From Sedimentisphaerales bacterium (lineage in GTDB: Bacteria > Planctomycetota > Phycisphaerae > Sedimentisphaerales > SM23-30): a stretch of 64,000 nt of DNA. Shown here piece by piece: positions 3,001 to 47,054 of the stretch (position 1 is the first letter of the stretch; each line of letters begins with the position of its first letter). The stretch lies in the NCBI GenBank assembly GCA_028281535.1, contig JANQJS010000025.1:1-64000 (forward strand). The letters are read 5' to 3'. The translations under genes and the position numbers were made by a program. The notes below the pieces were generated by a model. That model was not told the origin of the DNA. It did not search any database and saw only the letters and a program-made list of their open reading frames with translations.

Positions 3001-4855
3001 GACGCAGTATACTTATACGGTCGCCGCACGTGACAGTGTGGGTAACACAACCGCAGCATCTGCAGCGGCATCTGCAACGACCCAGGATCCGCCAAGTGAT
3101 GTGACGCTACTGACCGGTTGGGTCACTGGCACCACACATGCGGATCCGGCAGGTACGGATCGTGCGTTGGTCTTTACTGTGCATGCCGAAGATGATAACA
3201 CCAACATGAATGCCTCGGTCACCTATGGCGGTCAAGCGATGACCAAAGTGGTTGAACAAAATGTCGGTACAGGCTTCCGTGCTTATACCGCTGCATTTAT
3301 TCTCAATGATGCTGGTATTGCTGCAGCGACTAGCAGTACGTTTAATGTTACCTGGGCGCAAACACCGTCACGTACGCCTGGTTTTGCCAGTGTCTTCCTG
3401 GCCGGTGTCGATCAGGCATCCTTAACGGGTGCGAGCAGCGGTAACGGTAATACGTCAACCGCCACTATTTCTTCGGCTGCGTTGACAACGGACAGTGGTG
3501 ATTTGGTGATTGTTTCTGGTACGTGTGGTAACACAGGCACCTACACCGTGAATAATGGTTTTACAGAAGGAACCGAAGTGACGGTTGTATCTGGTGATGG
3601 TGTGGCGGGTCATAAACTTGCAACTGGCGCCAATGAAACGCCAAGCCTTACTCATAGCAATGCCAATCGACAAGTGGTTATTGGTTTTGTTGTTAATGCT
3701 GGTGGTGGCGGTGGTGGCCCAGACACAACGCCTCCAACGCCGAATCCTGCTACGTTTGCTTCCGCTCCTTCAGCCAGCAGCGACACTGTGATTAGCATGA
3801 CGGCAACGACTGCGAGTGATCCCTCAGGTCCGGTTGAGTATTTCTTCAATCACACCAGTGGTACACCGGGCGGTACCGATAGTAGTTGGCAGACGTCGAC
3901 CAGTTATACCGATAGCGGGTTGGCAGCTAGTACGCAATATTGCTACACGGTGCAATCACGTGACAGTGTTGGTAATACCGGCACAGCTTCGGGCGCCTCT
4001 TGTGCAACCACACAAGCGGCTCCGGATACCACACCACCAACGCCGAACCCGGCAACGTTCGCTTCGGCGCCAAGTGCTGATAGTGCTAGTGCAATTAGCA
4101 TGACAGCAACGACGGCAAGCGATCCATCTGGTCCAGTTGAATACAACTTTGATAATACGAGTGGTACACCTGGCGGTACGGATAGTGGTTGGCAAACGTC
4201 AACCAGTTATACCGATGTTGGTTTGGCTGCTTCGACGCAATACTGCTACACCGTTCAATCACGTGACAGTGTTGGTAACACAGGAGCGGCTTCGGCTGCA
4301 GCTTGTGCGACCACGCAAAGTGGTGGCGGTGGATGTGGTAGTGGTCAACCTTACACCAATTTCGTTGGTGCAGGGCAAAACCAGGATGTTGTTGCGACCG
4401 CAAGTAGTGCCGATGAAACAGCGACGGCAGCCAAAACGGTTGATGGTTCTGGTTTATCCGGTGGTGCACATGACGGCGTTTGGAATAACGCATTGCAAGC
4501 ACCGAGTGCTTCGGCGAATCCAAATCCGGCACGTGGCAATAGCTTCTGGGTTCAATATGACTTAGGTCACCTCTATTCATTAGGTGCTATGCAAGTCTGG
4601 AATCATAATGAATCTGGTTTTACCAACCGTGGTTTCAACAGTGTTTCCATTGATTACTCACAAGATGGTATCAACTGGACGGCTTTAGGAAACTTTACTT
4701 TCCCACAAGCGCCGGGTACCGGTGGTTACACAGGCTTTGCTGGACCTGATTTCGGTGGCGTGTGTGCACGCTATGTGATTATCACCAGCAACACGAACCA
4801 TGGCGGCAGTTTCTCTCATAGTTTAGCAGAAGTGCAGTTTAACCTGGTTCCTTAA
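2..4855 (+). CDS. Large secreted fibronectin-III-like repeat protein with cupredoxin and discoidin domains (5' end outside window)
   Basis: The frame is open from base 2, and its first codons already match the repeat, so the start lies upstream. One partial and nine complete FnIII-like units of about 101 residues are visible, each opening near 'PPTPNPATFASAP' and closing near 'SRDSVGNTG'. Other domains sit between units: a cupredoxin-like domain (nt 512-890), a lectin-like beta-sandwich (about 1195-1560), an unassigned beta-rich domain (about 3090-3700) and a C-terminal F5/8 type C (discoidin) domain (about 4330-4850). This is the architecture of a secreted or cell-surface adhesin or matrix protein that binds glycans. 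No sorting signal or membrane anchor is seen at the C-terminus. The lectin-like assignment is weak; the repeats and the discoidin domain are firm. Confidence 0.85.
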   Translation, partial: EGSNPVEYQFDETTAGPGATDSGWQTSTSYTDTGLSASTQYCYRVRARDSSGNQNTTGYSGAQCATTQPTPDTDPPTPNPLTWESVPSAVNDSVVVMTATLATDPAGNVEYQFDETTANPGATDSGWVPNREYYDYELQASTQYIYRVRARDFLGNIGGWSSSQSVITSADDGFVNVMVGPGTVFFPENITIPVGSTVQWTFVTDSDHNVWSGVTGGHTVFDGDPPWDGTPSGGTMLFQSTNDPLVTNPAGTNYAATFDQAFLDASTGDLGFDAYNYHCHIHGTGLHSGTITVTGGTPPPSPNPMTFASAPAATSCSSITMTATTATSANTPVEYLFTETTGGAGATDSNWQLSTTYVDNGLAASTQYTYNVRARDATGNAGTASSNASATTQAAGGGNWTIVDNTDSGIVYGGGGSWSNLTIYPSAINGTVQWNSVVGTGTATYTFNGTGIRVYLWSFDEDHSVSISIDSVNQGTFNAGVNLGSVQVFETTSLSSGSHTIVVSSVSNEAHFDAFEVQAGGGSCGADVDPPTPDPATFASAPAATSSSVITMTATTGTDASGPVEYLFEESSGNAGGTSSSWQTSASYSDTGLSSATEYTYSVQMRDSIGNTTAVSARLSATTTGGGDVTPPTPNPATFASAPSAVSDTAISMTATTASDPSGPVEYNFDHVSGTPGGTDSGWQTSTSYTDLGLSASTQYCYTVQSRDSVGNTGTASAQSCATTQAAPDTTPPTPNPATFASPPSASSDTVINMTATTASDPSGPVEYNFNHVSGTPGGTDSGWQTSTNYTDSGLAGSTQYCYTVQSRDSVGNTGTASAQSCATTQATPDTTPPTPNPATFASAPASTGTSSISMTATTASDPSGPVEYFFTETTANPGGSNSVWQTSTSYTDTLLTPNTQYCYTVTSRDSVGNTGASSAQSCATTDALPDVDPPTPNPMTFASVPSATSSSSISMTATTASDPSGPVEYFFDETSLNPGGSDSAWQTSTSYTDGGLNPSTQYTYTVAARDSVGNTTAASAAASATTQDPPSDVTLLTGWVTGTTHADPAGTDRALVFTVHAEDDNTNMNASVTYGGQAMTKVVEQNVGTGFRAYTAAFILNDAGIAAATSSTFNVTWAQTPSRTPGFASVFLAGVDQASLTGASSGNGNTSTATISSAALTTDSGDLVIVSGTCGNTGTYTVNNGFTEGTEVTVVSGDGVAGHKLATGANETPSLTHSNANRQVVIGFVVNAGGGGGGPDTTPPTPNPATFASAPSASSDTVISMTATTASDPSGPVEYFFNHTSGTPGGTDSSWQTSTSYTDSGLAASTQYCYTVQSRDSVGNTGTASGASCATTQAAPDTTPPTPNPATFASAPSADSASAISMTATTASDPSGPVEYNFDNTSGTPGGTDSGWQTSTSYTDVGLAASTQYCYTVQSRDSVGNTGAASAAACATTQSGGGGCGSGQPYTNFVGAGQNQDVVATASSADETATAAKTVDGSGLSGGAHDGVWNNALQAPSASANPNPARGNSFWVQYDLGHLYSLGAMQVWNHNESGFTNRGFNSVSIDYSQDGINWTALGNFTFPQAPGTGGYTGFAGPDFGGVCARYVIITSNTNHGGSFSHSLAEVQFNLVP
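1580..4327 (+). repeat. Tandem 303-bp coding repeats (FnIII-like units)
   Basis: Units begin at 1580, 1883, 2186, 2489 and 2792, exactly 303 bp apart. Two more begin at 3722 and 4025, after an inserted non-repeat domain at about 3090-3720. The translated units are very alike and the DNA is similar but not identical. The constant length suggests recent duplication or gene conversion. More diverged units lie upstream at about 205, 895 and at the window edge. Confidence 0.85.
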
Positions 4856-4876
4856 TTTTATGTCCACTTCCTTGTT

Positions 4877-4910
4877 TAAGCAGGGCTCTATTCATTTAGG
4901 GCTCTGCTTA
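4877..4910 (+). terminator. Hairpin after the repeat protein
   Basis: 4877-4888 pairs with 4899-4910 (12 bp including two G-T pairs, loop of 10). It begins 22 bp after the stop codon. No T tract follows, so it may be an mRNA 3'-end stabiliser instead of the terminator itself. Confidence 0.45.
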
Positions 4911-4960
4911 ACAACTAAACGATATACGTTGTATCTAAACTTAGATACTCTATTCCTTTT

Positions 4961-4991
4961 GCGTGGCATTCACCAATGCCACGCTTTTTTT
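4961..4991 (+). terminator. Rho-independent terminator
   Basis: A perfect 10-bp stem, 4961-4970 with 4975-4984, has the loop CACC and is followed at once by seven T residues (4985-4991). It ends the transcript of the repeat protein. The rest of the gap to the next gene (4992-5246) is AT-rich and I see nothing else in it. Confidence 0.9.
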
Positions 4992-9645: not shown

Positions 9646-9732
9646 GGAGAGTTGTCCGAGCGGCTGAAGGAGCTGGTTTCGAAAACCAGTGTGCGTTTAT
9701 TCGTACCGCGGGTTCGAATCCCGCACTCTCCG
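9646..9732 (+). tRNA. tRNA-Ser (anticodon CGA)
   Basis: The acceptor stem GGAGAGT (9646-9652) pairs with ACTCTCC (9725-9731), with discriminator G at 9732. The anticodon stem CTGGT/ACCAG frames the loop TTCGAAA, giving anticodon CGA at 9680-9682, which reads UCG. A long variable arm (GTGCG/CGTAC) identifies a class II serine tRNA, and GGTTCGAATCC forms the T arm. CCA is not encoded. It lies alone between two minus-strand genes. Confidence 0.95.
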
Positions 9733-44760: not shown

Positions 44761-45002
44761 AAGCGTGGGTATCTTCAACCTTTTTAGGGGCAATTATATT
44801 CATTATTCACTGTCTAACAATATATTATCGATCATATTCGTCTTGGTTCATGAAATTCTAGGCCAAACTTGATGAATCTATTTATCTTTGCTGGGTAAAG
44901 CGTATTAACTCTTGAAAAATAAGTAAAAACGGCATGTGGTACGTGTACGTATATTGGTGTGTTGAAGCTCAATTCTGCTTAAGAAAATTAAAGGAGTCTC
45001 AT

Positions 45003-45044
45003 ATGATTCGCATGTCTAACTTTTCCTCACTCACTCGAAGATAA
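45003..45044 (+). CDS. 13-codon ORF with strong Shine-Dalgarno site (tiny peptide or gene remnant)
   Basis: AAAGGAG (44990-44996) stands 6 nt before ATG 45003; TAA follows after 13 codons. Beyond it, frame +1 stays open for about 45 further codons without a start, which fits a frameshifted small gene. No homolog is recognised. Whether it is translated is open. Confidence 0.3.
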   Translation: MIRMSNFSSLTRR

Positions 45045-45225
45045 TTGGGTTGGATCGATAAGTCTTATATCAAACATGCAGATAAAATGTGAAAAGCGGC
45101 CCATGCCAAAGTGGATCAGGATAGATATGTTCGTAATATATGCGGCTTATCAAGATTATGTAAAAAAAAGAAAATAATTAAGTAATAAGACCTAAGTAAT
45201 AACGTTAATTAGTATACCAACCCTT

Positions 45226-45349
45226 ATTTTATGAATTTTCATAAAATGTTTGGCCAGGACCTTCTCGTGTTGCGAGCACAATGGGAAACTATAGTCCTGG
45301 CCAAATCGTAGGGTGTAATGCACCGTAGAAACTACACCGGGTGCATTAC
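45226..45349. ncRNA. Candidate structured RNA or repeat element: three consecutive perfect stem-loops
   Basis: Stem 1: 45226-45235 with 45238-45247. Stem 2: 45249-45260 with 45294-45305 (12 bp) enclosing a small hairpin CTCG/CGAG. Stem 3: 45315-45324 with 45340-45349 (10 bp), capped by GTAG/CTAC. All pairs are canonical. It matches no RNA family I can name. A REP or MITE-like repeat is an equal possibility. Confidence 0.4.
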
Positions 45350-45837
45350 GGGCTTGGGTGCAAATCTAAATTCGTTGCGGGATGAATCTCAATGGGTGTC
45401 TTTCTGGTCACAACTTTATTCGTTAGTACGTCTGTTAGCCCTGGATAGTTTTAGGTCAATATTCAGGTCAACGTCGTTAGTTGGCGGGCAATACTGAGGT
45501 AGGTTTTTACGTTATGTAAATAGCAGTATTATCTCGTGTCAATTTCTTGACGTTCCGAACTAGCAAGGCCGGTAATCTATGATTATTCCACTCTCAAGTC
45601 AAGTAAGAATATTACTTATATTTTATAATTTTTGAGAAATAATTATTGAGTACTTTGCAATTAAACAAGGCGAGATGGATGAATCTAAGCTAACTTGTTT
45701 TTACTGAGTTTGTTGGCGGTAGTGAAGACAATAAAATAGTATTACTCTTTTAAGGTAAATTTTTTATAAAAAAATGTCAGATTTGGTATGTCCAATTGGT
45801 GTTAGGGTTGCAATGTCAAAAAATGGGGTGATGGTCT

Positions 45838-46614
45838 CTACTCTTGTGCAGGTTCATGCACATATCCAATACGGCAATGAAGTGGCCAAATGACCGTTTT
45901 GGCGTATTCTGGTTTTTGCCATGTGCTAATTAATTCTTCTTTTACTGTTTCGATGGGATTTTTTCTATGTATTGATTTGTATTTTTGAACAGCAGACCAA
46001 GTGTCCAAATACTCTAGTATTTGGTTGAGAGTCCATTCTTGTGTCATCGTAAAAGGTGGTGATTTTATTTCGTGAAATGGAAAGGGCAGCGTTGCGTAAG
46101 CTTCTTCGATATATTGACGTTCAGGGGGCCAGTAATTTCCGATGATATCATCATAAAAATAACGAATCACTTTATCGATTTCAGGGCTTACCGTTTGGAG
46201 TTCATAGCACCAGGCAGCAATAACGGTGTTTGGCTTACTAACGCGTTTTACTTCTTGATAAAATGTTTCAAAATTAAACCAATGTAAACCTTGTGCAATC
46301 GTAATTAAATCAATACTGTTATCAGGAATGGTTGTATTGTCTGCCAGGTAGACTTGGTAAGAAATGTTAGGATGGGGTTCTGTGTGCTCGATTTGTTCTT
46401 GGCTGGCATCCGTTGCGATAATGGAGTCAAAATAGTTTGCTAATCCGATGGAAGCCTGGCCATTTCCGCATGCGCAATCCCAAGCGACAGTCGTTTCATT
46501 GCAAAGTGAAGCTAAATATGCAAACAAAGCATCCGGGTATGTCGGACGCTTTGCGGCATAATCATTGGCATGATTTGAAAAATGATCTTTAAAAGATCCT
46601 TGGTACGAGTTCAT
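45838..46614 (-). CDS. SAM-dependent methyltransferase (class I)
   Basis: This 258-residue protein has motif I 'AWDCACGNGQAS', motif II 'IIATDASQEQIEH' and 'IDLITIAQGLHWFNFETFY', the pattern of Methyltransf_11/25 enzymes similar to yeast trans-aconitate methyltransferase-type relatives. Opening 'FSNHANDYAAKRPTYP' is typical. ATG 46614 overlaps the TAA of the copper protein gene by one base (TAATG), so it is coupled to it. Substrate unknown. Confidence 0.85.
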   Translation of the reverse strand: MNSYQGSFKDHFSNHANDYAAKRPTYPDALFAYLASLCNETTVAWDCACGNGQASIGLANYFDSIIATDASQEQIEHTEPHPNISYQVYLADNTTIPDNSIDLITIAQGLHWFNFETFYQEVKRVSKPNTVIAAWCYELQTVSPEIDKVIRYFYDDIIGNYWPPERQYIEEAYATLPFPFHEIKSPPFTMTQEWTLNQILEYLDTWSAVQKYKSIHRKNPIETVKEELISTWQKPEYAKTVIWPLHCRIGYVHEPAQE

Positions 46615-47054
46615 TAACCGATCAAGGCTTTGCACGCTTCAACGCAAGCTTTGCAGGAGTCTGCGCAGGCTTTACATTCTTCGTGATGGTTTTCATGGCG
46701 GCGGCATTCTTTTTCGCAGTCGCTGCAGATTTTTGCACACACTTCGCAAAAAGCTTCAAGGTGTTTTGATTTGTAAGACGCCAAGCTAATCAATGCTTTG
46801 CACATGGCCACAGATTCAATGACTAAATCGGCACAGCCAGCAGTACCCGTATCACCTTTTTTAAATAACGCCATGCAGTGTTCGATACATGCTTCGCCCG
46901 TTTTGATGCAGTCCAATGCGGCATCAATTACACCTTTGCTTTTGTTGGATTCGGCTTGGGCCGTGGATGTTAGGAAGTTGTTTGTACTGGCTGCAACAGC
47001 TAATGCTCCAGCACTTGCCAATACATTGCGACGATTTAATAAATTCTTTTCCAT
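46614..47054 (-). CDS. Csp-like four-helix copper storage protein, Tat-type signal
   Basis: This 146-residue protein begins with 'NRRNVLASAGALAVAAS', a twin-arginine signal. The mature part has 15 Cys at helix spacing ('CIKTGEACIEHC', 'CEVCAKICSDCEKEC', 'CKACADSCKACVEAC'), as in DUF326 proteins and Csp1, which line a four-helix bundle with Cys to hold many Cu(I) ions. So it stores or detoxifies copper outside the cytoplasm. First gene of a two-gene unit with the methyltransferase. Confidence 0.9.
   Translation of the reverse strand: MEKNLLNRRNVLASAGALAVAASTNNFLTSTAQAESNKSKGVIDAALDCIKTGEACIEHCMALFKKGDTGTAGCADLVIESVAMCKALISLASYKSKHLEAFCEVCAKICSDCEKECRRHENHHEECKACADSCKACVEACKALIG

Follow-up and report, generated by a model that had tools for sequence, protein, structure and literature searches.

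Perfect inverted repeats of bacteria are mostly intergenic, with a strong enrichment downstream of transcription end sites, according to PMC13155455. REP/GTAG repeats are described in PMC3733652 as occurring in many genomic copies, in association with a RAYT (Y1 transposase) that has the same palindromes on either side. These features fit ordinary explanations for most stems of the genome considered here, that of a Sedimentisphaerales bacterium (GCA_028281535.1). Its proteins with PSD/PSCyt domains, which are associated with planctomycetes, point to a planctomycete-like lineage. The window under analysis, the first 64,000 nucleotides of its contig JANQJS010000025.1, contains three consecutive hairpins between two genes, which we compare here with the closest described systems.

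Intrinsic terminators and the hairpins have in common perfect stems, frequent near gene ends in the same genome. The hairpins differ, however, in lying more than 450 bases from the nearest open reading frame (ORF) of at least 90 aa, in having two long, complex loops and in showing no T-run beside their stems. A G+C-rich stem directly before a T-run is absent from the region, and an intrinsic terminator was accordingly discarded. With REP/GTAG palindromes and MITEs the locus shares intergenic palindromes, and a GTAG precedes hairpin 3; those elements, however, form repeated families, whereas the hairpin unit is unrepeated. A REP/GTAG repeat was also rejected, the unit being present in one copy and the two Y1_Tnp genes of the genome lying in loci of ~3 kb without matching hairpins. 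Integron attC sites resemble the locus in their imperfect closing stem and folded interior, but RYYYAAC/GTTRRRY boxes occur only at 44812, 45014 and 45049 (plus strand), none of them bounding the fold, and this candidate was dropped as well; none of the 7 tyrosine-recombinase matches in the genome lies above the cut-off for an integron integrase. Orphan intergenic bacterial small RNAs, finally, have in common with the locus a noncoding, single-locus nature, a structured body and candidate promoter-like and T-tract signals. Unlike them, it comes without a homologue, a G+C-rich terminator stem or an Hfq gene found in its genome, and its RNA is a predicted one.

The hairpin cluster and its noncoding gap

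Hairpin 1 is a perfect A/T-rich stem of 10 bp with a loop of 2 bases (45226-45235/45238-45247). Hairpin 2 has a perfect 12-bp stem (45249-45260/45294-45305) and a loop of 33 bases, predicted to form a three-way junction on the plus strand, and hairpin 3 has a perfect 10-bp stem (45315-45324/45340-45349) with a loop of 15 bases. An earlier note on this DNA had reported three perfect stems of 10, 12 and 10 bp at 45226-45349, and both their positions and their lengths are confirmed. The capping inner hairpins that it described for stems two and three are likewise borne out by the plus-strand fold, in which CTCG..CGAG and a 4-bp stem with the loop GAAA form within hairpin 2 and GTAG-AAA-CTAC within hairpin 3. 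The three stems, perfectly Watson-Crick paired, work on either strand, as does an imperfect closing stem in which CCAACCC (45217-45223) pairs with GGGCTTGG (45350-45357). The whole makes up a three-arm fold (45217-45357), assigned here to the minus strand and predicted on both.

The cluster lies in 1,044 bases of noncoding DNA between two genes (44794-45837), a gap without any complete ORF of at least 60 aa, in agreement with the gene-poor setting of about 1 kb described before. On one side is a minus-strand gene with weak similarity to YhdP/DUF748, starting at 44793 or 44763; on the other is a methyltransferase gene (45838-46635, minus strand), whose 3' end at 45838 marks the edge of the gap. 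A hidden protein in the gap was considered and rejected: most of its 28 scored short ORFs have a codon usage like that of intergenic ORFs and score as noncoding, and a 59-codon ORF that starts inside hairpin 3 (45318-45497) is intergenic-like in this respect. A few ORFs of 12-18 codons score higher, at a length too small to judge. Pfam gave no match for the four gap reading frames tested, and six-frame tblastn against a genome sample of 1,058,062 bases (~1.06 Mb, 24% of the same genome) returned mostly self matches among the matches listed. Positions 46614-47054 encode a protein rich in cysteine that has a TAT-like signal and matches DUF326 below threshold; it is reminiscent of copper-storage proteins.

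Structure against chance and against the rest of the genome

The earlier note considered chance to be unlikely, a judgement that our comparisons uphold. When the gap was shuffled 2000 times with its dinucleotides preserved, three non-overlapping stems of at least 10 bp arose once, and 11 places in the ~1.06 Mb sampled have at least two such stems within 220 bases, with the hairpin cluster as the sole triple. The folding z for 45200-45380 is -5.4 on the plus and -5.1 on the minus strand, and a scan of the gap in 120-base segments singles out 45210-45329 alone (z -5.8 and -4.0, respectively). On the scale of the genome, the cluster ranks 18th in folding z among 1541 sampled intergenic segments, in a ranking that is noisy at 15 shuffles each. 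The arrangement of the hairpins is unusual, yet the strength of the fold by itself is not unique.

The window as a whole holds 10 such perfect stems where 20 Markov simulations gave 3.1 on average; the genome thus has a general excess of perfect stems. This excess, the 10 other places in 1.06 Mb where two stems lie close together and the lack of conservation across the genomes searched would all suit palindromes that arose without selection in a decaying or neutral gap, for example from template switching, and that serve no function. We regard this explanation as unlikely, given that the triple appeared in a single shuffle out of 2000 and nowhere else in the genome sample, and that the stems are perfect and hence either young or kept.

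Other structured places of the genome provide context. Stems of at least 11 bp outside ORFs number 60 in the sample, and many of these resemble terminators and lie close to the ends of genes. The strongest-folding intergenic stretch sampled (4856-4985, z -12) contains a 10-bp stem (4961-4984) directly after a gene end and is probably a terminator. Elsewhere in the same genome (C9, ~187.5 kb), two perfect stems, one of 10 bp with a loop of 34 bases and one of 13 bp with a loop of 28, sit in a gap between divergent genes (L029:3462-3515 and 3571-3624); their layout resembles that of hairpin 2, their sequence is unrelated, and a covariance model of the cluster (R1) gave no match to them.

Copy number, relatives and mobile DNA

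By BLAST, the hairpin cluster is present in a single copy in its own genome and finds no homologue among 58 related genomes. Across 397 genomes of the class, including its own, six gave matches, namely the locus itself and five matches over 20-25 bases (E 0.005-0.007), which are taken as chance given the number of genomes searched. Model R1, run with stricter filters against 298 class genomes including its own, and a minus-strand model (R2), run with laxer filters against 40 genomes including its own, each built from one sequence, recovered only the locus itself. In the genome sample both models again find the hairpin locus alone, R1 with an additional weak hit on the opposite strand of that locus. 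Since no homologue was found, there is no covariation evidence for the fold. The same-family genomes searched come from other genera, whose YhdP-like proteins show 22-39% identity in the stretches that match, so the absence of the hairpins at the DNA level is weak evidence. Against Rfam (release 15), only a tRNA at 9646-9732 reaches its gathering threshold in the whole window, and the best match within the gap stays at 21.5 bits, below its threshold of 60; the lack of a family match in the hairpin region is in line with the description of the structure as undescribed.

A mobile repeat, the other possibility raised at the outset, is disfavoured by the single genomic copy and by the lack of copies in the other genomes searched and in phages or plasmids, where the cluster has no match. 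The exact arms of hairpin 3 are absent from viral contigs, and those of hairpin 2 occur there at one place (L048), which was set aside as a seemingly unrelated phage region in which TGGCCAGG palindromes abound. Palindromes of the TGGCCAGG type recur in that contig at a spacing of ~45 bases (L048:1290-1800). In the genome of the bacterium itself, two further loci (L038:5403-5441 and L088:67-134) have in common a palindromic end with AGGTACCTTTAATTATTCC, perhaps the end of a mobile element.

The neighbouring methyltransferase has four relatives at 41-44% identity, in unrelated phyla; of 30 other related genomes, 4 give matches, all of them weak. This distribution suggests that the gene was probably acquired horizontally. 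Because the gene is patchy and seemingly horizontal, an insertion scar at the gap is possible. A DNA-level element of this kind would be an insertion remnant, perhaps a scar of the arrival of the methyltransferase, or a protein-bound cruciform with a part in recombination, replication or mobility. Perfect Watson-Crick stems, which can function as a fold on either strand, and the patchiness of the adjacent gene among relatives are consistent with it. We nevertheless hold it to be rather unlikely: the cluster is single and has no phage or plasmid match, no integron integrase scores above the cut-off, both Y1 transposase loci carry different hairpins, the relatives of the methyltransferase lack the structure, and the four gap frames tested are without a Pfam match. 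Model R1 gave no match either beside the four methyltransferase relatives or at the 10 YhdP-like loci examined.

A candidate small RNA on the minus strand

The most likely reading, to which we assign a probability of about 0.4, is that the hairpin cluster represents a small noncoding RNA, specific to its lineage and transcribed from the minus strand. The proposal of an undescribed structured RNA made in the earlier note thus stands as the leading reading, with no Rfam match and a plausible minus-strand unit on its side, and the failure to find a homologue against it. Judging from the signals around the fold, transcription would run from ~45356 to ~45165 and yield an RNA of ~190-195 nt. Its body would consist of the three-arm fold with the closing stem CCAA.CCC/GGG.TTGG, and its 3' part would be an AU-rich tail ending in a U-tract.

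A promoter-like site of the minus strand, with a weak match to the consensus (45363-45392, TTGAGA-18-TAGATT, 9/12), stops, read from 45392 to 45363, 6 bases short of the closing stem; a T-tract ~45 bases past the fold (45162-45173) is the candidate 3' end. Both signals were noticed post hoc and each is weak alone. The minus-strand 195-mer folds with a z of -4.3. Sampled noncoding DNA (167 kb) contains 809 promoter-like sites and 10 T-tracts of this kind; promoter matches as weak as the present one are equally frequent in shuffles. Promoter-T-tract pairs 150-230 bases apart occur twice in it, once at the hairpins and once at a place (L084) that is not strongly structured (z -1.2). Independent placement predicts ~2 such pairs by our own estimate, which equals the number seen, so only the coincidence of the pair with the fold is notable. 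Both conditions, for the promoter-like site and for the T-tract, hold at 16 of 165,503 noncoding positions, and at 152, a tenfold commoner event, when the T limit is relaxed to 10 of 13. Ahead of the T-tract (45173-45162) there is no G+C-rich terminator stem, and the AU hairpin found there folds poorly.

The three-arm fold is about equal or slightly better on the plus than on the minus strand, with energies of -62.7 and -57.8 kcal/mol for 45200-45380, and the inner loops GAAA and AAA form on the plus strand, as expected if the noncoding RNA were transcribed from that strand. The plus strand, however, has neither a promoter-like site just upstream nor a T-tract just downstream, and we consider such an RNA very unlikely. 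The hairpins also lie 430-560 bases upstream of the YhdP-like gene and on its strand, where they could belong to a long 5' leader affecting transcription or mRNA stability. This would be fairly improbable, in view of the better promoter-like sites (10/12) that lie in between (45164-45135 and 44820-44793) and of the lack of such a hairpin trio upstream of the gene in relatives.

If the separate minus-strand RNA is made, its exposed loops may pair with targets or the RNA may be bound by a protein, by analogy with other orphan bacterial small RNAs. CsrA-type GGA positions were also considered and judged unspecific. An Hfq gene was not found in the genome, in a search whose control matched in 5 of 14 named genomes.

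Taken together, our findings describe a real, locally unusual structure, for which the case as an orphan noncoding RNA is modest and unproven. That it represents a new class of lineage-restricted, multi-arm noncoding RNAs in planctomycete-like bacteria, to which the L029 hairpin pair, similar in layout and unrelated in sequence, could be related, appears highly doubtful. Our literature search on planctomycete small RNAs listed no dedicated study. If the cluster is not transcribed, it would mean that striking hairpin clusters in the same genome need no function. If it is transcribed, it would provide a well-delimited small-RNA candidate in a planctomycete-like lineage, and would allow one to ask how orphan structured RNAs act where no Hfq gene is found.
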